Source of the DNA: Candidatus Xianfuyuplasma coldseepsis
GTDB lineage: Bacteria > Bacillota_I > Bacilli_A > Izemoplasmatales > Izemoplasmataceae
Assembly: GCF_014023125.1 (NCBI RefSeq)
Contig: NZ_CP048914.1
Coordinates: forward strand, 434,001 to 498,000
Reading direction: 5' to 3'
DNA: 64,000 nucleotides
In this document: one piece after another, positions 1,499 to 59,718 of the stretch
How positions within the stretch are numbered: the stretch's first letter is position 1
How the letters are laid out: each line of letters starts with the position of its first letter
Program-made: the position numbers and the translations under genes
The notes under the pieces: model-generated
The model's input: the letters and a program-made list of their open reading frames with translations, nothing else
Databases searched by the model: none
What the model was told of the DNA's origin: nothing

Positions 1499-4153
1499 TT
1501 ACTGTGTCATAGTTTCAAGTAAGGTTTGGTGTTCTGCTTCGATTTTTGTGTAGGCTTCTTTGAGACGAACATCGGAGTCTTTCTTGACTCGTTTTTGTTC
1601 TGATTCCAACAAGGATGAGGATGCTTGTTTGCGTTTTTTCACATCCGCGGTTACTTGATTGTAATCAGCCACTTGAGTTTGCAAAGTTGTATTGATTTGA
1701 TTAAGTTCTTGATTGAGAGCTTGGTCGAGGTCATTTTTCTTACTGGTAAGTGTGTTGTTCCCAGCAGCAATGGCTTCATTCGCAACGGCCTTGATGGCTG
1801 CAACCGCTTCTTCAACTGCTTGTTTCACGGCTTCGACACGGGCTTCTTCAGTTTGCACTTTCGATTTAACTTCAGCAAGGAACGCTTGTTCTTCTTGTTG
1901 TAGTTGTTGTTTGTCTTCCTCGAGTTGTTGCAATAACAACTCACGTGAACGTTCCATGACGGTCGCGGCTTGTTGTTTACGTTTGTCTTCAATCGCTAGT
2001 TGCTGATCAAGATAAGATTTGTGCATCGAGGATTGTTGTTCCCGTCGTGAAGCGAGTTGTAATCCGAATTGATTAAAGGCGGATGTAATATGGTCGAGAT
2101 TGGTTTTTGCAAGAGCTAACTCAGCTGCACTGTGTTCTTTTAATACCGTTAGGTGATCCGTGATATCCTTCGTTGCAGCTTGATGCAACTCGCGAATATC
2201 TTTCACGGCTTTGTCCTTGCGATCTAAGACATCAGCCAACCCATCTTGATAGGGTCCAACAAGCGTTTCGAGTTCACGTTCACGATGTGCTTTTTCATCG
2301 GTGAACGCTTGTTTCTTACGTTGGTAGGTGGATTCCAATTGTTTTCTTTCTTTGCGGTCTTGAAGGGTTGTCAACGAATCAATTTGAGCTTGGAGTTCCA
2401 ACAACTCTTTTTCATTTTGCTCGACAAACGCATTAAATGCATCTTGTTTATCACCGGCAATATCTTGAATTTGTTCTTCGTAGAACGATGCTTCTAAAGT
2501 AAATTCAGCATCCACTTTTTCTTCGAGAAGTTTATAGGTTTTATCGAGTTCTATTTGCGATGATTCATAGACCTCCATTTTGAGGGCTAAGCGATTGTTT
2601 ACTTCTGCTGTTTCATACGCAAGAATATCTTCCACTCGTTTCGTATATAACGGTGATAATTGTTCTTGATAAGCGACAAACTCTTCTTGTAGAGCGTTGT
2701 TGCGTTTATCTTGAACATGGTGATGTTCTGCTTGTTTATCGGCTTCTAGAACGGCTTTCTTATTCGTATATTCAATGTCTAAAAGGTCTGCTTCATTTGC
2801 GAGTGTACGAATCGTTTCATCGCGTCTTTTTTCAGAAAGTTTGACGGCTTTATGTTGTTCCAATTCCAAGAACAGTTTGGCCTTAACTTGTTCTTCAGCC
2901 GTTAACTTAACCTCTTCGATAGCGGTATCTCGCGCTTGAACATATTCGGCGTTGAGAAGATCTTGTTGTAATTCTTCTTTGGCAATAGCCAAATCTTTTT
3001 CATAGAGTACTTGTTCTTGTTTTTCACGGATTTGAGCAAAGCTACTGTTAAACTTGTTCAGTTCGTCAGCACGGTCTTGTTCAAAGTCCAATTTGACTTG
3101 TTCCAAGTCGTTATTATGAGCAAACTGAAGTTGATCAATATCGAGTTGTTTGTCTTCTTTATATTTCGCAAATTCCTTTTGCAGATCTTCTAAGTCTTGA
3201 ACAAATTCTTTCATGAACTTGGTACGATAGTCGATCGATTCTTTTTTCTTTTTGTCGTAATTTTTCTCTAATACAATTAAGTCTTTATCGGCTTCTTTTC
3301 GGAATTTAGCAATGTCTTTCTTATGTTGTTTTGCCGAACGGTTGTCATTTTCAGCAATGGCGCGTTGTAAATGTTTTTCCCGAACTTGAATCCGTTTATC
3401 TACAGCATCTTTGATGCTTTGATGTTTGCGATCAAATTCACTTTTGTCATACTCCATCTTTTCATCAATTTCAGCAAGTTCTTCTTCATAGACGGTTTTC
3501 TTGGTGACGACTTTTTTGGTGTGTGCATCTTGTTCTTTCTTAATTTGCTCATGAATGGATTCTACTTTTTTGTTAAACGATTCTTGAAGTTTTGCTAGTT
3601 TAGTTTTCTCTTTTTCAAGTAGGGTTTCTACCTTTGCTTCATATTTCGCTTTTAAATCATTAATTTTTTGGTCGAAAGACGCTTGGTCTTTCCCACTTTT
3701 TTCATTAATGGCTTCAATATTCTTTACAGATGCATCAAGATTTTTTTGCAATTCTTTCTCGAGTGATTTCAACGCTTTTTGATGGTCTTTTTCGGACGCT
3801 AAAACTTGTTTTTCATGATCGGTGATTGCGGCTTCTAATTCACGTTGATGTTTCTCGATTTCTTGAACACACAAATCAATGGCTTGTTGTTTTTGACTGT
3901 CTAGTTTTTGGAGCGCTTCTTTTAATTCTTTCTCGAGCACACTAAGATCCGATTTGAATGATGCCTCGATTATTTTATCTTCTTGATCTAATTCCTTGAT
4001 TGTTTTTTTATACGCTGTTTCTAAGGCTTTGGTATCTTTCTTAAATGCTTCAAGTAGTTTCTTGGCATTATCATAAACGTTTAATTCCTCTTTTGTGACG
4101 GAACTAAACTGTTTTTCAACGATTTTTTGCAGTTCTTCTTTTGTTCTTGGCAT
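1499..4153 (-). CDS. Large coiled-coil protein (884 aa), unknown function
   Basis: Not assignable to a named family. Nearly the whole 884 residues are highly charged (Lys/Glu/Gln/Asp rich), with heptad-like spacing of Leu/Ile/Val and almost no Pro or Gly, which indicates one long alpha-helical coiled coil. There is no signal peptide, membrane segment or Walker motif, so it is not an SMC ATPase. It is predicted to be a cytoplasmic rod or filament. It has its own promoter (4184-4212), a good ribosome site (AAGGAGGAATATTC before ATG) and a terminator on each side. It lies directly downstream of the MreB operon on the same strand. A structural partner of the MreB filaments is a reasonable guess from position, but nothing in the sequence proves it. 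Confidence 0.8.
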   Translation of the reverse strand: MPRTKEELQKIVEKQFSSVTKEELNVYDNAKKLLEAFKKDTKALETAYKKTIKELDQEDKIIEASFKSDLSVLEKELKEALQKLDSQKQQAIDLCVQEIEKHQRELEAAITDHEKQVLASEKDHQKALKSLEKELQKNLDASVKNIEAINEKSGKDQASFDQKINDLKAKYEAKVETLLEKEKTKLAKLQESFNKKVESIHEQIKKEQDAHTKKVVTKKTVYEEELAEIDEKMEYDKSEFDRKHQSIKDAVDKRIQVREKHLQRAIAENDNRSAKQHKKDIAKFRKEADKDLIVLEKNYDKKKKESIDYRTKFMKEFVQDLEDLQKEFAKYKEDKQLDIDQLQFAHNNDLEQVKLDFEQDRADELNKFNSSFAQIREKQEQVLYEKDLAIAKEELQQDLLNAEYVQARDTAIEEVKLTAEEQVKAKLFLELEQHKAVKLSEKRRDETIRTLANEADLLDIEYTNKKAVLEADKQAEHHHVQDKRNNALQEEFVAYQEQLSPLYTKRVEDILAYETAEVNNRLALKMEVYESSQIELDKTYKLLEEKVDAEFTLEASFYEEQIQDIAGDKQDAFNAFVEQNEKELLELQAQIDSLTTLQDRKERKQLESTYQRKKQAFTDEKAHRERELETLVGPYQDGLADVLDRKDKAVKDIRELHQAATKDITDHLTVLKEHSAAELALAKTNLDHITSAFNQFGLQLASRREQQSSMHKSYLDQQLAIEDKRKQQAATVMERSRELLLQQLEEDKQQLQQEEQAFLAEVKSKVQTEEARVEAVKQAVEEAVAAIKAVANEAIAAGNNTLTSKKNDLDQALNQELNQINTTLQTQVADYNQVTADVKKRKQASSSLLESEQKRVKKDSDVRLKEAYTKIEAEHQTLLETMTQ

Positions 4154-5715: not shown

Positions 5716-6741
5716 TTAATCAACGGGTTTCACGTAGTAATTTCCTCGATTTTGCAGTAGTACTTTCGTTCCTTCCACAATCGCAGTAAGTGGGTTTTTG
5801 GCGATGTGAACATCCAGTCCGATTTCGTTGAATAGAAATTCATCTACACCATCGATAAGGGCACAGCCACCGTTGACAAGCATTCCACTTTTAATAATAT
5901 CTGCGGATAACTCTGGTGGGGTGTTTTGCAACACTTTAAGAACAGCATTGGCAATGGCACGGAACGGTTCGACAAAGATGTCTCGAACTTCTGTTTGCGT
6001 TACCGTAATGCGTCGTGGTAAACCGGTGACAATGTCGCGTCCGTTGGCATAGGTTTCTTTCTCTTCAACTATTTCTTGCCGCAACGTTCCGATTTCTTCT
6101 TTGATACGTTGCGCGGTTTTCTTACCGATTAGTATTCCTTTTTCATACTGTAAGTAATTAATGATTTCTTGATCTAAGTAATTCCCGGCGATGCGAATCG
6201 ATTCACTCACAACAATGTCTCCTAGACTGAGGACACCGATGTCGGTGGACCCTCCGCCAATATCAATTACCATGGATCCGACACTATCGTATATATCAAG
6301 ACCAGCGCCAATGCCTCCGGCTTTGACTTCTTCTTCGATAAAGACGTCCGGTACGCCAAGATTATGGGCGAGATCAATGAGGGCATCGCGTTCAATCTGG
6401 GTCACTTCACTTGGACAACAGATGAGCAATGTCGACGTTTGTAAATTCACATCGATCGTTTCCGCTTTATGAACAGCGATTTCAATCAATTTCTTCGCCG
6501 CATCCATATCGCTAATAACCCCTTGATTCAAAGGACTAACGATTTTAATACCATGATGGCCACGGCCGATCATACGGGCCGCGTTAAAGCCGGTTGCGAT
6601 GACATCGTTGGATGCGTATTCCATCGCGATAACACTTGGTTCATTAAAGATGATTCCTTCACCATCAACATAGACGAGTAGGTTCGCGGTACCGAGATCG
6701 ACGCCGATTTTGATGTATTTTTTATTGGTTTTATTAGCCAC
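5716..6741 (-). CDS. mreB: MreB paralogue 3 (actin-like cytoskeletal ATPase)
   Basis: 341 aa actin-fold protein that should polymerise into membrane-associated filaments. Visible motifs are phosphate-1 GVDLGTANLLVY, the interdomain FIEEEVKAG..GAG region, phosphate-2 DIGGGSTDIGVLS and the adenosine motif NGGCALIDGV. The family length is about 340 aa, so it is complete. I place the start at the GTG at 6739-6741, because the in-frame GTG at 6750 lies inside the ribosome site GAGGTG. It lies 12 nt after mreB paralogue 2 and 3 nt before the EAL gene. Of the three copies it carries the most changes (GGGS for GGGT, NGGC for TGGG), which suggests specialisation. Confidence 0.92.
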   Translation of the reverse strand: MANKTNKKYIKIGVDLGTANLLVYVDGEGIIFNEPSVIAMEYASNDVIATGFNAARMIGRGHHGIKIVSPLNQGVISDMDAAKKLIEIAVHKAETIDVNLQTSTLLICCPSEVTQIERDALIDLAHNLGVPDVFIEEEVKAGGIGAGLDIYDSVGSMVIDIGGGSTDIGVLSLGDIVVSESIRIAGNYLDQEIINYLQYEKGILIGKKTAQRIKEEIGTLRQEIVEEKETYANGRDIVTGLPRRITVTQTEVRDIFVEPFRAIANAVLKVLQNTPPELSADIIKSGMLVNGGCALIDGVDEFLFNEIGLDVHIAKNPLTAIVEGTKVLLQNRGNYYVKPVD

Positions 6742-6753
6742 AATAATCACCTC

Positions 6754-7767
6754 TTATAGTTTCAATGGATTCACTAAATAATCACCGCGATTTTTTAGTA
6801 AATACTTGGAGCCTTCCGCTACACATGTAAGCGGATTATGGACAACTTTTACCGGTACTTTGATGCGATCACTGATGTATTCCTCGACACCTTTGATTAG
6901 ACTTCCACCACCGGTTAGATAGATTCCATGTTCGAAAATATCAGCCGATAATTCCGGTGGAGTGTCCTTTAAGACTGCAGAAATGAGTTTGACGACTTCA
7001 TCGTAGGTCGGTTCTAGTACTTGTTTGACATCGGTACTAGAAATATCAACCCATTTTGGAATACCACGGACAATGTCACGTCCGGCGTAGCGATTCACTT
7101 TTAATTTTGCGTCTTTGCGCAAATCAGCAAGTTCAATTTTGGCGTTTTCACTTGTCAACTCCCCAATTTCAACTTTGTCGTTTTGTTTGACGAGTTTGGC
7201 GAGCTCGGTGTCGATGTAATTTCCTGCCATGCGGATCGTCCGGGATAACACAATATCTCCAAAGGATAATACACCGACATCCGTTGTACCCCCGCCGATG
7301 TCAACCATCATGATCCCTTTTGATTGAAAGATATCGAGGTTGGCACCCAGAGCAGCTGCCTTGATTTCTTCATCGATTAAGACATCGGAAATACCCATGT
7401 TCATGGCCAGTTCACTGATGATGTCTCGTTCGATTTTGGTAACCTCACTTGGACAACACATCACACAAGAGGTGTTTGTCAAATCTTTTTCGGTCAGGTT
7501 TTCCACTTCCTGTAATACATATGTTAGTAATGCCTTGGCGGCTTTCATATCACTGATGACACCACTTTTTAGTGGCTTAATCACACTGATTTTATCATGT
7601 ACTTTTCCCAGCATTTTGTGAGCGTCTTTACCAGCTGCAACAATCTGGCCACTCTCACGATCAAAGGCAATCACGCTAGGTTCATTAAAGATGATTCCTT
7701 TTTTCTCGAGGAACACCAGTAAATTTGCGGTACCGAGATCAATACCTAATCCATATTTTTCTGCCAT
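6754..7767 (-). CDS. mreB: MreB paralogue 2 (actin-like cytoskeletal ATPase)
   Basis: 337 aa. Motifs: GIDLGTANLLVF near the N-terminus, IDEEIKAAALGAN, DIGGGTTDVGVLS at about residue 165, and TGGGSLIKGV near 290. All phosphate-binding loops look intact. The pattern EEEIKAA/EEEVKAG and the Asp in GGGTTD resemble MreBs of Spiroplasma and related wall-poor bacteria more than the IEEPxAAAIG form of rod-shaped walled bacteria. The ribosome site GGAGGGACCTTT precedes ATG. It is the middle gene of three tandem copies, 11 nt after copy 1. No mreC, mreD, rodA or pbp gene accompanies the cluster. Confidence 0.93.
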   Translation of the reverse strand: MAEKYGLGIDLGTANLLVFLEKKGIIFNEPSVIAFDRESGQIVAAGKDAHKMLGKVHDKISVIKPLKSGVISDMKAAKALLTYVLQEVENLTEKDLTNTSCVMCCPSEVTKIERDIISELAMNMGISDVLIDEEIKAAALGANLDIFQSKGIMMVDIGGGTTDVGVLSFGDIVLSRTIRMAGNYIDTELAKLVKQNDKVEIGELTSENAKIELADLRKDAKLKVNRYAGRDIVRGIPKWVDISSTDVKQVLEPTYDEVVKLISAVLKDTPPELSADIFEHGIYLTGGGSLIKGVEEYISDRIKVPVKVVHNPLTCVAEGSKYLLKNRGDYLVNPLKL

Positions 7768-7778
7768 AAAGGTCCCTC

Positions 7779-8810
7779 CTAAAACTCACCAAAGTAGTGG
7801 TTTTTATTGATTTTTAACAATTTCTTCGTTCCGTCTACCACATCGGTTAACGGGGTCGGAGAAATATGAACCTCTACATTGGTTGCCTGTTCGATATAGT
7901 CTTTGATGCCTTTGATTTTTGCGCCACCACCGGTGACGATGATGCCATTATCAACCAAGTCACCCGCAAGTTCTGGGGGCGTGGTTTCAAGCGTTGCAAT
8001 TAGTGTTGCTTTTACGGCTTCGAATGCATCCAATAGAATCGTCCGAATTTCTGATGCTTCGAGTGTTACTTTCTTGGGTAACCCACTGACGAGATCACGT
8101 CCCATGACGTCGAATGTCAGTGGTTTACCTGATTCGTCTTTGGGCATGTCCCCCGTTAAACTAGCCAGCGCAATTTTAGCTTTTTCAGCCGTTTGGGGTC
8201 CAATTTCAAGTTTGTGTTTCTCTTTGACATAATCACTAATTTGTTTATCAAAGTAATCCCCAGCTACTTTGATACTTTTCGATAGGACGACGTCACCTAA
8301 ACTTAGAACACCGAAATCGGTTGTTCCACCACCAAGGTCGACAACAAGATGTCCACTTGGGGTGTAGATGTCCACACCACTACCAATCGCTGCTGCTTTG
8401 ATTTCCTCATCAATTTTGGTATCGTCTATACCAAGCTCTTCACCGAGCTGCAAAATCGCAGCTTTTTCGGTTTCGGTGATTTCGGATGGGATACAAATCA
8501 ACAACTTGTTAATTTGTTGTGAACTGTTCACGAATAGTTGATCAAATGTAAAATTTAAGATCTCGCGAATCATGCTCACATCACTGATGACACCACCTTG
8601 CAGTGGTTTCACCACTTCAACTTTGTCGTGTACCTTACCAACCAGTTCGGCTGCATCAAATCCGACAGATACAACTTGTTTCGTTGCCTTGTCAACAGCA
8701 ATGTAGGATGGTTCGTTGAAGATCGTTCCTCGTCCTTCGACATAAATTAGAAGGTTTGAGGTTCCGAGATCCACGCCAACGTTGAATGATCCTTTTGGTT
8801 TCTCACTCAT
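7779..8810 (-). CDS. mreB: MreB paralogue 1 (first gene of the riboswitch-controlled operon)
   Basis: 343 aa MreB with GVDLGTSNLLIY at residues 11-22, IDEEIKAAAIGSG, DLGGGTTDFGVLS near 165 and TGGGAKIKGI near 300. It carries a short extra N-terminal tail (MSEKPKGSFN) and a roughly 10-residue insertion around residue 230 relative to copy 2. The ribosome site is GAGGAGGATTTT before ATG. The 5' leader of about 210 nt contains a c-di-GMP-I aptamer (8937-9024) and an intrinsic terminator (8844-8873), so this gene and the three behind it should be switched by the second messenger. Confidence 0.94.
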   Translation of the reverse strand: MSEKPKGSFNVGVDLGTSNLLIYVEGRGTIFNEPSYIAVDKATKQVVSVGFDAAELVGKVHDKVEVVKPLQGGVISDVSMIREILNFTFDQLFVNSSQQINKLLICIPSEITETEKAAILQLGEELGIDDTKIDEEIKAAAIGSGVDIYTPSGHLVVDLGGGTTDFGVLSLGDVVLSKSIKVAGDYFDKQISDYVKEKHKLEIGPQTAEKAKIALASLTGDMPKDESGKPLTFDVMGRDLVSGLPKKVTLEASEIRTILLDAFEAVKATLIATLETTPPELAGDLVDNGIIVTGGGAKIKGIKDYIEQATNVEVHISPTPLTDVVDGTKKLLKINKNHYFGEF

Positions 8811-8936: not shown

Positions 8937-9024
8937 AAATATTGCGGTTCAGCCAGCATAGTATTTACCGTAGCTCTGGAACTTTGCGTCTACAAGTTTC
9001 CCTGTATTTGCCCTTTGAATATTT
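8937..9024 (-). promoter_or_regulatory. Cyclic di-GMP-I (GEMM-I) riboswitch upstream of the mreB operon
   Basis: Read on the minus strand this matches the GEMM-I aptamer. AAGGGCAAA is followed by a P2 stem TACAGG/CTTGTA closed by a GAAA tetraloop, then GACGCAAAG. A P3 stem (CCAGAGC..GCTGG) carries the receptor-like CTACGG/CTATG segment, and the aptamer ends GGCTGAACCGC. A flanking P1 of 7 bp can form between 9018-9024 and 8937-8943 (AAATATT/AATATTT). The residue equivalent to the ligand-contacting G20 is G, as expected for c-di-GMP. A TTGATA box at 9045-9050 is a candidate -35, but the exact start of transcription is not resolved. Whether ligand turns the operon on or off is not clear by eye: CAATAT at 8939-8944 can alternatively pair with ATATTG at 8885-8890. 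Confidence 0.92.
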
Positions 9025-55492: not shown

Positions 55493-55514
55493 CATCCGTT
55501 CTACGGATGTTTTT
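55489..55514 (+). terminator. Terminator of the HxlR-type gene
   Basis: ACATCCGT, TCT loop, ACGGATGT then TTTTT. Confidence 0.85.
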
Positions 55515-55834
55515 TATGAACTGTAAACATTAAAATATGACTATTCTATAAATATTTTGAATACAAACTTAATTACAATGCATTTCAAATTAAAATTTAA
55601 CAAAATAAAGCGTTAAATCGTTGGCTTTAAAAGGTTCAAAAACCAAAATTATCTATCCTGATTACAATAATCGTAATCGGATGTCAAGAAAATTGACCAC
55701 TAGCTATATTTCACTCAAATACTTTAAGACACATAATACTTTTGAGGGCTTAATAGTATAAAATGTTATGTTTAGATAGCCAAAACAGCAAATATTAAAT
55801 AAATATTAAATATTGACTAATGTTTGTGAAACTG
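55515..55834. other. Non-coding AT-rich region upstream of the TasA-like promoter
   Basis: About 320 bp with no plausible gene. It contains an inverted repeat GATTAC-N7-GTAATC (55660-55678). It also holds two head-to-tail copies of AAATATTAAAT (55790-55800 and 55801-55811) just upstream of the strong promoter, which could be an UP element or regulator site. Confidence 0.5.
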
Positions 55835-55863
55835 TTGACACCAGTATTTATATACTGTATAAT
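55835..55863 (+). promoter_or_regulatory. Consensus promoter of the TasA-like fibre operon
   Basis: Perfect TTGACA (55835-55840), 17-bp spacer, perfect TATAAT (55858-55863). Transcription should start near 55870, just before the riboswitch. Confidence 0.92.
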
Positions 55864-55891
55864 TCAAACAGATTGGGGTACTATCCCAACT

Positions 55892-55967
55892 CATGAAAAA
55901 AGCACTCTTGGAGAAATCCATGATTCGCAAAACTATAGGGCCTGTAAAATGGCAGCCAGTTACCATG
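55892..55967 (+). promoter_or_regulatory. GEMM-I riboswitch upstream of the TasA-like operon
   Basis: AAAAAAGCAC, then a P2 stem closed by a GAAA loop (TTGGA/TCCA region), the core TTCGCAAAAC, the tetraloop-receptor segment TATAGGGCC..ATGGCAGCC and the end AGTTACC. This follows the GEMM-I (c-di-GMP-I) aptamer layout found in Clostridia. At the position equivalent to ligand-contacting G20 of the Vibrio Vc2 aptamer I read A (AAAGC instead of GGGC). Such A20 variants include c-di-GMP, cGAMP and mixed sensors, so the ligand is slightly uncertain. The leader has a small hairpin TTGGG..CCCAA before the aptamer. Confidence 0.88.
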
Positions 55968-56023
55968 AATATCCATTGGTAATTGGCATTTTTTAATACC
56001 AGTGGACAACACTGGTATTTTTG
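55955..56023 (+). promoter_or_regulatory. Expression platform with three competing hairpins
   Basis: The aptamer end GCCAGTTACC (55955-55964) is fully complementary to GGTAATTGGC (55978-55987), which is followed by T6. CCATTGGTA (55973-55981) is complementary to TACCAGTGG (55997-56005). TACCAGTG (55997-56004) also pairs with CACTGGTA (56010-56017), followed by TTTTTGTTTT as a strong terminator. Ligand-bound aptamer should hold GCCAGTTACC, free the CCATTGGTA anti-terminator and allow read-through, so this is a predicted ON switch. Confidence 0.8.
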
Positions 56024-56041
56024 TTTTAAGAAGGTGATAAT

Positions 56042-56632
56042 TTGATAAGCCGTAAAACGATACAAATGGCAATAATCTCATTTCTTCTTGTAGGATTGAT
56101 ATTTACAACATCATCCGCCTATGCATACTGGCAATCTGTCACTGTTACGGAAGACATTGAAATCGTAACCATCGGACAACCGATTGAAATTCTGGTTACA
56201 GACATAAATGAGGAGATGGATTTAAATCTTGTTCCAAGCGGATATGCACTGGCCGTAGGTGATGTTGAGATTATTGAACTTACCTATGAAGTAGGAGTAT
56301 CGAGAGAACTCCTAAATACTGTCAACTTGCATGTGTTCGCAAAAGATGTTCTTATTAATGACGAAGATACATACAGTAACTTAGTAGATATCAAAATCAT
56401 GGGATACGATGATCACGCAATACTCGATTTATACAACGACGATATCACAATTGTATTACAAGTTCGCCTAATCGAACCGATTGATGCGGAAGAAGCCGCA
56501 GAACTAGGATTGGATGAAGCACTTGTAAACGTGGAAGACTCCGTTCAAGCATACGAGGACATTCGAGGACAAACAATAACCTTCAGCCTTGGATTTGAAC
56601 TGGAACAAAAGACCGATGAGGTCACTGAATAA
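56042..56632 (+). CDS. TasA/camelysin-like secreted fibre protein A
   Basis: 196 aa. N-terminal signal (RKTIQMAIISFLLVGLIF..SAYAYW) ending in the AYAYW motif of SipW-processed proteins. A beta-rich body follows with LVPSGYALAVGDVEIIELTYEVGV (about 60) and an acidic C-terminus (EDSVQAYEDI). It should be exported, trimmed by the SipW-type peptidases encoded downstream and assembled into extracellular fibres or sheath. The TTG start at 56042 (AAGGTG upstream) is needed to include the basic start of the signal. First gene of the riboswitch-controlled fibre operon and homologous to the 59101-59616 product. Confidence 0.82.
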   Translation: MISRKTIQMAIISFLLVGLIFTTSSAYAYWQSVTVTEDIEIVTIGQPIEILVTDINEEMDLNLVPSGYALAVGDVEIIELTYEVGVSRELLNTVNLHVFAKDVLINDEDTYSNLVDIKIMGYDDHAILDLYNDDITIVLQVRLIEPIDAEEAAELGLDEALVNVEDSVQAYEDIRGQTITFSLGFELEQKTDEVTE

Positions 56633-56700: not shown

Positions 56701-57285
56701 ATGAAATCAAGAAAATTAGGAATCGCTTTATTAGCAATGTTAGCAATCGTAGTAACAACTGGTACATTCGCATACTGGGCAGGCGCAGTTGTCGCACCTA
56801 CAGGTGGAGATACAACAACTGGAACTGTAACTGTTGGTACAGGTGCAGACGTAACGACATCATTTGTATTAAACAATACCGTCGCAAGTGGTGGACAATT
56901 AGTTCCATCTGGACAATCCGGAAATAGCCAAGGCACACCAGTTGAATTTGTAGATTTAAGTTACACTGTACAATGGACTGAAGATGGAGATCAATTGCTT
57001 GGTACTTCTACTACTGCCAATATCACTGCTACACCATCTGTTGCAATGGTTGAAGATGATGGTTTAACCGCTATTACAAACCAAACAATTTTAGACTTGG
57101 TAGTTATTACACCAAATGTAAGTAACCCTAGCACCATTACATTGGATGCAGCTGCTTCTACATTTGCTTGGACTGTTACTTTAACTGAACCCGCAAATTC
57201 TGCGGATTATGCTGTTGTTCAAGGTGCAACCATTACAATTACGTTTACCTATTCATTAGACACTATCGCAACAACTGATAACTAG
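56701..57285 (+). CDS. TasA-like major fibre protein B
   Basis: 194 aa. Signal RKLGIALLAMLAIVVTTGTFAYWAG with the canonical FAYW SipW site. The mature part is Thr/Val/Gly/Ala rich and poor in charge, repeating TTTGTVTVGTGADV-like strands, which is typical of beta-rich filament subunits. LVPSGQSGNSQG echoes the LVPSG motif of proteins A and D. Good ribosome site (AAGGAGAATAAAAA) and high-expression codon use suggest the main structural subunit. 68 nt downstream of gene A without terminator. Confidence 0.8.
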   Translation: MKSRKLGIALLAMLAIVVTTGTFAYWAGAVVAPTGGDTTTGTVTVGTGADVTTSFVLNNTVASGGQLVPSGQSGNSQGTPVEFVDLSYTVQWTEDGDQLLGTSTTANITATPSVAMVEDDGLTAITNQTILDLVVITPNVSNPSTITLDAAASTFAWTVTLTEPANSADYAVVQGATITITFTYSLDTIATTDN

Positions 57286-57331: not shown

Positions 57332-57637
57332 ATGGATATCAAACGAGTAATTAAAAAAGTAGCGATCATGACGTTCATGATCTTTACTATTTCAAGTGTC
57401 ACAGATAATACTTTTGCGTATTGGACGACAAATGTATTAGGTCCTGCTGATGGAACCACCACTGGTACTGTGCTTGTTGGAACATGGACTACGGTTAGTC
57501 CTTACGACCCCAATACAAGCTATAATATTGGTGATCTTGTTGAAAACAACGGAATTACTTATGAGGCCAAAAAGTCAGGTTTATTAAAAGAACCTGGTGT
57601 GGAAACTGGTTGGAAGTCTGAATGGACACAGTTGTAA
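57332..57637 (+). CDS. SipW-dependent small protein with carbohydrate-binding-like tail
   Basis: 101 aa. Signal with FAYW (residues 28-31), a linker that copies the GTTTGTVLVGTW segment of fibre protein B, and a 45-residue C-terminal module. That module is SPYDPNTSYNIGDLV, then GITYEAKKSG and a W-rich end WKSEWTQL, which follows the chitin-binding (CBM5/12) pattern (Y..GD.V...G..Y.A...W). It may be a fibre-tip adhesin that attaches to polysaccharide. Ribosome site GAGGTGAGATC. Confidence 0.75.
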   Translation: MDIKRVIKKVAIMTFMIFTISSVTDNTFAYWTTNVLGPADGTTTGTVLVGTWTTVSPYDPNTSYNIGDLVENNGITYEAKKSGLLKEPGVETGWKSEWTQL

Positions 57638-57670: not shown

Positions 57671-57721
57671 TATTTATCTTGTGATATAATTATTTGTAAG
57701 GATACTAAAAAGGAGCTCGCT

Positions 57722-58297
57722 ATGAAGAACGAAGCCTTGAAAGAGAACATAAAATTAATAGGGTCGATGATTATCATCGGTATCTTGTTGTTGTACATAA
57801 CCTTTCAATTGTTTATACCTGATATGACGGTACGTGTCTTTGGGTTTAAACCATATGGTGTCTTAACACAAAGTATGGAACCTGTGATTGATCGCGGCGA
57901 TCTAGTTGTCGTTCGTCAGTTTGAGTTGGATGATGCTGAAGTTGGCGATATTATTACATTCCGAACTGTACTTCCTGAAACCGGAACCGAAGAGATTGTT
58001 ACCCACTATATTTACTCCATAACAGAAACGGGAGGAAACACGGTAATTAAGACCAATCGTTACTTTGATGAAGACGATACACCGTTTGCCGATACCTGGA
58101 TTCTAACTGAAGATCAAGTCGTTGGTGCATATTGGTTCCACATCCCATATCTAGGTTATATCACACAGTTTGTCCGTTCACCATTTGGAATCGCAGCTGT
58201 TATTGTTAATATAGGTGTTATTACTGCCATTGTTATCCTAATAAAAAAAGGAAAACCTGAAGAACAGCAGAAAGTTGAAGATACCAAAGAAGAATAG
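57722..58297 (+). CDS. sipW: SipW-type signal peptidase I (first copy)
   Basis: 191 aa. One N-terminal and one C-terminal membrane helix. The catalytic Ser is in LTQSMEPVIDRGDLVVVR (about 58), and the usual bacterial Lys is replaced by His in IVTHYIYSI (about 100), as in endoplasmic-reticulum-type and SipW peptidases. It should cleave the AYW-type signals of the neighbouring fibre proteins at the outer membrane face. The ATG at 57722 has AAGGAGCTCGCT upstream. Confidence 0.92.
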   Translation: MKNEALKENIKLIGSMIIIGILLLYITFQLFIPDMTVRVFGFKPYGVLTQSMEPVIDRGDLVVVRQFELDDAEVGDIITFRTVLPETGTEEIVTHYIYSITETGGNTVIKTNRYFDEDDTPFADTWILTEDQVVGAYWFHIPYLGYITQFVRSPFGIAAVIVNIGVITAIVILIKKGKPEEQQKVEDTKEE

Positions 58298-58416: not shown

Positions 58417-58463
58417 AACCATACACAATAGAAATCATGAAGCAATTGAAAGGAGGTTCGACA

Positions 58464-59039
58464 ATGAAACTAGTTATGAAATTGATATCCTATGGGGTTT
58501 CAGCTGCATTAATCCTTTATATTGGAATCACCTTACTCGCGCCACAACTCACTATGGATATTTTTGGATTTCGTAGTTTTATAGTGGTATCTCCGAGTAT
58601 GGTTCCTGATATCAATGTGTATGATATGATTTTTATTACAGACGTTGAAGAATCCGATTTAGAAATTGATGATATCATTACCTTTTCGGTCTATATTCCG
58701 GAAGTCGATCAAGTTAGTTTTGTTACCCATTACATCGGTGATATTCAAACGCAAACCGGAGACGACACGATATACAAAACCCATGGTGCGAATTTTGAAG
58801 AGGGTGATTCTTTTGATGACTGGGAAGACAAAGATGGAAATCCAATTGATATAACCTTTGACGATATTGAAGGAGAATATCAATTCAAAATCCCGTATGT
58901 TGGGTATCTAGTTACGATGCTGCGGGATCCAATATTTTTAGGACTACTCGCAATCAACGGGACCATCATTTACTTCTTAGTAAAGACTGTAAAGAAGACC
59001 TTTCTCAATAAAGACAATGAAAAAAAGGAATCTGAATAA
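58464..59039 (+). CDS. sipW2: SipW-type signal peptidase I (second copy)
   Basis: 191 aa. The same layout as copy 1, with catalytic Ser in VVSPSMVPDINVYD and His in SFVTHYIGDI, and terminal membrane helices. The extracellular loop differs strongly from copy 1, so the two may prefer different substrates. It follows an intergenic stretch of 166 bp with a terminator, so it may have an own promoter. Ribosome site AAGGAGGTTCGACA. Confidence 0.9.
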   Translation: MKLVMKLISYGVSAALILYIGITLLAPQLTMDIFGFRSFIVVSPSMVPDINVYDMIFITDVEESDLEIDDIITFSVYIPEVDQVSFVTHYIGDIQTQTGDDTIYKTHGANFEEGDSFDDWEDKDGNPIDITFDDIEGEYQFKIPYVGYLVTMLRDPIFLGLLAINGTIIYFLVKTVKKTFLNKDNEKKESE

Positions 59040-59100: not shown

Positions 59101-59616
59101 TTAGGATACATTCATTGCGAAGAAATATACTTCAAATGCTAGTTGTTCACCAACGATTTGTTGGTACAGTTCATACGTTCCAGGTAGTTCCATAGATACT
59201 TGGACAGTAACATCCACAACTTGTGCTGTGTCGACACCACTAAACATATGTTCATAGTATTCCAGTGTTTCGACTACCGTTGTAGAAATATCAAAATGGA
59301 ATACTTGTTCTAAATCTTCTTGAGCTACATTACTATTGGAAAATAGTAAATCTTCAATAAGAACTTGAAGCTCCATTCCCTCTTTAACGATGACTTGATA
59401 GCCGTATTCAATATAATATACATCATTCTCACCAAGGATAACACCTTGTGGTACTAGGGATTGTCCCGGTTCACCAACAAGTTGTTGTTCAACGATGTAA
59501 AAGTCTCCTGCCTCATCAATGTACAAGTCATCATTTGATTCCACTTGTGCATAGACTGCAGTCGAACTTGTAAAAACAAAAAAGACCAAAACTACACGTA
59601 GCAATATGTTTTTCAT
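59101..59616 (-). CDS. TasA-like secreted protein D (riboswitch-controlled, convergent copy)
   Basis: 171 aa. Signal peptide KNILLRVVLVFFVFTSSTAVYA cut at VYA-Q, which is a normal signal peptidase I site lacking the FAYW motif. The body shares LVPQGVILGENDVYYIEYGYQV with LVPSGYALAVGDVEIIELTYEV of fibre protein A and is acidic, so it is a paralogue, possibly an anchor or accessory subunit. The ATG at 59614-59616 is used (GGGAG 8 nt upstream). It has its own promoter (59762-59790) and GEMM-I riboswitch. Confidence 0.78.
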   Translation of the reverse strand: MKNILLRVVLVFFVFTSSTAVYAQVESNDDLYIDEAGDFYIVEQQLVGEPGQSLVPQGVILGENDVYYIEYGYQVIVKEGMELQVLIEDLLFSNSNVAQEDLEQVFHFDISTTVVETLEYYEHMFSGVDTAQVVDVTVQVSMELPGTYELYQQIVGEQLAFEVYFFAMNVS

Positions 59617-59640
59617 ATTCATCTCTCCCATGGGGGTATT

Positions 59641-59718
59641 CATCAGGCAACTGGCTATCTCGTTGAGACCCTTTAGCTTTCCGTCCCAGGATCGCTCCTG
59701 GTTTGGCTTTATCAAATG
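59641..59718 (-). promoter_or_regulatory. GEMM-I riboswitch upstream of fibre protein D
   Basis: Minus strand: GATAAAGCCAAA, perfect P2 stem CCAGGA/TCCTGG closed by a GCGA (GNRA) tetraloop, core GACGGAAAGC, P3 segment TAAAGGGTCTC..GAGATAGCC, end AGTTGCC. The position equivalent to G20 is G. Core pair 21-46 is C-G here, where the other two RNAs have G-C (CC..CGG against GC..CGC), a compensatory change that supports the fold. No terminator follows. The ribosome site GGGAG is only about 12 nt beyond the aptamer and can pair in CCC-CAT-GGG, so control is probably translational. Confidence 0.85.

Follow-up and report, generated by a model that had tools for sequence, protein, structure and literature searches.

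How can one class I c-di-GMP-type aptamer govern a leader that carries two successive stop signals? This question is raised by the region upstream of the gene at 56042-56632 (+) in the window, the stretch of 64,000 nucleotides analysed here from Candidatus Xianfuyuplasma coldseepsis zrk13, a wall-less cold-seep bacterium that has been cultured (PMC8397711). The zrk13 genome is one contig of 1,958,905 bases, in which four c-di-GMP-I aptamers and 20 GGDEF-domain matches were found. A TTGACA-17-TATAAT promoter lies at 55835-55863 (+), 27 nt upstream of the aptamer; it matches the consensus at 12 of 12 positions and is the only such site in the surrounding kilobase (pattern scan of 55500-56500). 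The leader is predicted to fold with an energy of -44.6 kcal/mol, compared with -28.5 ± 3.4 kcal/mol for shuffled sequences (z = -4.75). Judged from its sequence, it is probably a class I c-di-GMP-type transcriptional ON switch that operates through four mutually exclusive helices, namely the aptamer, A, B and C.

The pairings were examined at the level of individual bases. Hairpin A is formed between 55955-55964 GCCAGUUACC and 55978-55987 GGUAAUUGGC, with 10 bp including one G-U. As it takes 55955-55964 from the aptamer, the bound aptamer and terminator 1 are mutually exclusive. Helix B joins 55973-55981 to 55997-56005 by 9 bp, one of them G-U, and can be extended by one pair to 10 bp (55972-55981 with 55997-56006). 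In hairpin C, 55997-56004 pairs with 56010-56017, and two more pairs extend the stem to 55995-56004 with 56010-56019, followed by a T run. All three pairings of the original prediction are thus present letter for letter, with one G-U in B. Two intrinsic terminators are predicted within a single expression platform, A with its T6 and C with its T run; hairpin C is also the one terminator-like site returned by the pattern scan of 55500-56500, where 0.2 would be expected. A chain of A, B and C of this length arose in 1 of 20,000 dinucleotide shuffles in which the aptamer strand was kept fixed.

Table 1. Features of the leader and of the genes downstream; positions are those of the window.
Feature	Position	Strand	Basis and remarks
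c-di-GMP-I (GEMM-I) aptamer	55891-55967	+	RF01051, 41.2 bits (gathering score 35)
a1, aptamer 3' strand and 5' arm of hairpin A	55955-55964	+	pairs with 55978-55987
Hairpin A, likely terminator 1	55955-55994	+	stem to 55987, one A, T6 (55989-55994); -16.1 kcal/mol
b1, 5' strand of antiterminator B, within loop and 3' arm of hairpin A	55972-55981	+	10 bp with 55997-56006
a2, strand shared by antiterminator B (as its 3' strand) and terminator 2 (as its 5' arm)	55995-56006	+	pairings B and C
Hairpin C, predicted terminator 2	55995-56022	+	10 bp stem, 5 nt loop, U-run
Likely ribosome-binding site AGAAGGTGAT	56030-56036	+	read from sequence; outside hairpins A, B and C
Secreted protein, first gene of the controlled unit, N-terminal AYAYW motif	56042-56632	+	without Pfam or NCBIfam family
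Second secreted protein, TGTFAYW signal motif	56701-57285	+	sequence
Third secreted protein	57332-57637	+	weak CBM_5_12 match below curated cut-off
Signal peptidase I, archaeal/SipW-like	57716-58297	+	PF10502; TIGR02228 above cut-off, SipW model below
Second SipW-like signal peptidase homologue	58461-59039	+	weak matches below cut-offs

The arrangement of these strands suggests how the leader would work. With no ligand bound, the 3' strand of the aptamer would pair with 55978-55987 to give hairpin A, which together with the U6 that follows is probably the first terminator. Hairpin A would also hide the strand needed by helix B, leaving the 5' arm of C available for C to form as a second, backup terminator; the OFF state would consist of A and C, with two stops. 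In the presence of ligand, the aptamer would retain its 3' strand and A could not form. The freed 55972-55981 would then capture the 5' arm of C as it emerges, giving B, and in the resulting ON state, aptamer plus B, polymerase would pass both sites. An ON switch built on a chain of mutually exclusive hairpins had been proposed for this leader, and it is the reading best supported by the sequence. Beyond the switch itself, it appears likely that a conserved helix linking the two intrinsic terminators places both, one after the other, under the control of a single aptamer, the backup stop being released along with the first. Two other modes were considered and rejected: an OFF switch, because the aptamer excludes the first terminator, and control of translation as the main mode, because none of the three hairpins reaches the ribosome-binding site.

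If the three pairings matter for function, they would be expected in relatives, and their absence there had been named as grounds for giving up the idea. Orthologs of the 56042-56632 gene occur in Izemoplasmatales, and more distant ones in Acholeplasmatales (here, metagenome-assembled genomes and isolates labelled Acholeplasmataceae or related Mollicutes). A c-di-GMP-I aptamer is found directly upstream of nearly all of them. In some of the leaders (L039, L042, L043 and L044) a single terminator is present and draws its 5' arm from the aptamer, using the latter's 3' strand, as in the pilM ON switch (PMC9262584); the architecture of hairpin A is the sole terminator in several relatives. Two hairpins follow the aptamer in G002, G008, G029, L078 and L083, besides the window, and in the Acholeplasmatales leaders L084, L085, L089-L094, L098, L099, L101 and L102. 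In these two-hairpin leaders the 3' arm of the first hairpin can pair with the 5' arm of the second terminator. The run of U after A is seen in the window leader, in G008 and in most Acholeplasmatales leaders. Hairpin A is accordingly likely to be a terminator in its own right here, and not in general, since G002, G029 and L078 lack the U-run. Tandem termination in the OFF state, which the original prediction had offered as a possibility, is thereby supported without being universal.

The conservation of helix B was assessed by permutation and by alignment. With each leader paired to its own partner, the summed duplex energy of B was -196.3 kcal/mol, against -117.1 ± 11.5 kcal/mol with permuted partners, and none of 50,000 permutations was as low (n = 13); this figure overstates the significance, because the 13 non-redundant leaders were chosen for having two hairpins, partly after B had been seen, and are related to one another. 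Less open to this selection problem is the alignment A4, which holds 11 Acholeplasmatales leaders aligned by sequence alone. In A4, 90% of the cells of B are paired, compared with at most 44% when the strands are slid; both partners differ in five pairs, a result matched by 1 of 500 shuffles, and none of the 500 attained the covariation score. The same picture, with compensatory changes, is obtained for terminator C on the same columns. As both B and C are held there, the shared strand is constrained to two partners at once. Pairs of C also change on both sides in the orthologous leaders of the Izemoplasmatales alignment A5. In the sister species G002, helix B is CUCAUUGGUA:UAUCAGUGAG, compared with UCCAUUGGUA:UACCAGUGGA in the window, and two pairs have changed on both sides.

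When 269 distinct leaders were scanned uniformly, 86 had a candidate second terminator. A strict coupling test was passed by 20 of the 86; its p cut-off by itself would let through about 2. Most of the 20 coupled leaders are upstream of orthologs of this gene, and in a few the pairing is trivial because it joins the repeats of tandem aptamers. Consensus folding of the Izemoplasmatales leaders (A5) recovered the aptamer and C, and not A and B, because the intervening stretch is misaligned; B was for this reason assessed by permutation and with the Acholeplasmatales leaders of A4. A search for relatives in viral contigs found none. Taken together, A, B and C are kept in relatives, with compensatory changes in B and C.

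The order in which the helices form was followed by ensemble folding at growing transcript length, with the aptamer either free (apo) or locked. In the apo state, hairpin A is complete (1.00) from 55988, and hairpin C appears from 56012, reaching 0.95 from 56020. When the aptamer is locked, B forms from 56000 and stands at 0.94 at 56008-56014. At full length and at equilibrium, C (-22.4 kcal/mol) is favoured over B (-20.0 kcal/mol) with the aptamer still locked, giving 0.91 for C and 0.06 for B, and the same preference is seen in several relatives. Because C exceeds B by about 2 kcal/mol even then, the ON state must be kinetic, and by these computations it is predicted to depend on timing. Along the direct path from B to C the barrier is about 11 kcal/mol; if a prefactor of 1e6 per second is assumed, the rate is about 0.02 per second, and B should outlast the passage of the polymerase. 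The claim that the ligand favours the middle pairing is supported with an amendment: B is conserved and forms first with the aptamer locked, but C prevails over it at equilibrium. For G002 and L084 the prediction is that B prevails at equilibrium too. L078 is an exception: there B is predicted to prevail in the absence of ligand as well.

The advantage of C at equilibrium in the window leader is what an uncoupled dual terminator would show, in which C forms with or without ligand, A alone opens on binding, and the leader's response is weak or absent. A precedent exists in Bc1 of Bacillus thuringiensis, a c-di-GMP-I leader in which T1 unfolds with ligand and T2 stays active (PMC11218506). Such a design would have no need of B, which is nevertheless conserved with compensatory changes; moreover, B forms before C can, has a barrier of some 11 kcal/mol before it on the way to C, and wins at equilibrium in G002 and L084. 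An uncoupled arrangement is hence improbable in this leader. It might also be supposed that hairpin C is the relic of a duplicated terminator and that the complementarity of b1 to a2 is a functionless by-product. The strands of the window leader would allow this, as b1 resembles b2 and a1 resembles a2 in the way a duplication would leave them. A by-product would be expected to decay, and the complementarity is instead kept through differing sequences across lineages, with changes on both sides, which makes a relic very improbable. The reading in which B links the two terminators is preferred to both.

The nature of the ligand bears on the switch separately from the expression platform. P2 and P3 of the aptamer have pairs with changes on both sides in the orthologous leaders (8 leaders), and a GAAA tetraloop is present in its sequence. 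G20 is the usual, non-obligatory base in c-di-GMP aptamers. At the position of Vc2 G20 the window aptamer has A, which differs from the usual G of RF01051 and agrees with the A of cGAMP riboswitches (GEMM-Ib). This A and the low score of the aptamer, above threshold though it is, count against the proposed switch. This position guides the choice between c-di-GMP and cGAMP (PMC9262584, PMC6274999), as a selectivity factor and not as a hard filter (PMC9262584). Among the Izemoplasmatales aptamers collected, that of the window is the sole A20 within its own family; A20 is found in 41 of the 62 aptamers of the sister Izemoplasmatales family f3. Since A20 is that frequent in a sister family, and since the position is no hard filter, the aptamer was taken as a variant inside the Rfam family.

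An A at the selectivity-guiding position is the argument for 3',3'-cGAMP as the ligand (GEMM-Ib type), acting on the expression platform as described above. No maker of cGAMP is apparent in zrk13, however: the canonical Asp is kept in every GGDEF domain with a readable motif, and a search of the genome for an SMODS-type cyclase domain did not find one. The closest orthologous leaders carry G20, and the position affects selectivity only, so that cGAMP is an unlikely ligand. In view of the 20 GGDEF matches, c-di-GMP is likely to be present in the cell. The A at the G20 position makes its identity as ligand less certain, and c-di-GMP is probably, as the most likely candidate, what this aptamer binds. 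In f3, two A20-rich sister genomes also keep the canonical Asp in GGDEF domains with a readable motif.

The product of the first gene of the controlled unit has orthologs of 35-65% identity in relatives. TasA/SipW fibre loci have a gene content resembling the secreted proteins and SipW-type signal peptidase present here. Searches for the identity of a fibre protein gave no Pfam or NCBIfam family and no PDB sequence match; structure models were of low confidence (pLDDT 67 and 69), and pilin-like and cannula structures were matched with Z values no higher than 6.6, which the tool does not count as meaningful. We infer a surface-fibre role for these genes, and the label of a fibre operon is plausible.

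Among characterized systems, the pilM riboswitch of Geobacter metallireducens is a GEMM-I ON switch with cGAMP as ligand (PMC9262584). Its terminator borrows an aptamer strand, so that aptamer and terminator exclude each other as with hairpin A; it differs in its ligand and in having a single terminator without a linking antiterminator. Bc1, compared here by its published description, likewise has a class I aptamer with two intrinsic terminators behind it, the first opened by ligand. Bc1 shows no response because ligand does not undo T2, which masks T1 (PMC11218506). In Bc1 T2 is unreleased, whereas here a conserved antiterminator ties T2 to T1. The leaders L039, L042, L043 and L044 share the aptamer, the gene and the use of the aptamer 3' strand as terminator 5' arm, and lack B and C. 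A literature search on tandem terminators with c-di-GMP riboswitches returned nothing under those words, and Bc1 under 'dual terminator'; as far as the searchable literature shows, a conserved link between two terminators is new.

If the terminators are indeed coupled, a tighter OFF state would be gained without loss of the ON response, by a route that evolution can take. Bc1, the one dual-terminator c-di-GMP riboswitch found in the literature, is unresponsive and provides the contrast. Binding of the signal is predicted to disarm both stops and turn on the secreted-protein genes. The linked leaders stand upstream of one gene family in two orders of wall-less bacteria, and as some of these bacteria are cultured, a direct test is possible. 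The layout could also be copied into synthetic switches.

Several other leaders were noted in the course of this work. In a sister family, 10 leaders (G040:C1:895873, G042:C106:10530 and G044:C1:1291822 among them) have a second two-terminator layout: one aptamer 3' strand serves both terminators, and the second encloses the 3' arm and U-run of the first, paired away inside it. The lineage may have reached two-terminator gating in two ways. Upstream of the same gene as in the window, L079 has two c-di-GMP-I aptamers in a row (3503-3578 and 3822-3897) with their own expression platforms, and L087 has three in a row (3423-3923).

The window holds further aptamers. A second c-di-GMP-I aptamer at 8940-9022 (-), with 62.2 bits a stronger match than that at 55891-55967, lies upstream of three tandem genes at 5716-8810 (-), named MreB-like from their translations though the host is wall-less; similar aptamers are present in relatives. 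A c-di-GMP-I-GGC aptamer (RF03167, 60.6 bits) at 59642-59716 (-) is upstream of a small secreted-protein gene at 59101-59628 (-), which converges on the operon starting at 56042. The leader of this gene has CCCCCAUGGGAGAG adjoining the start codon, which suggests control of translation.
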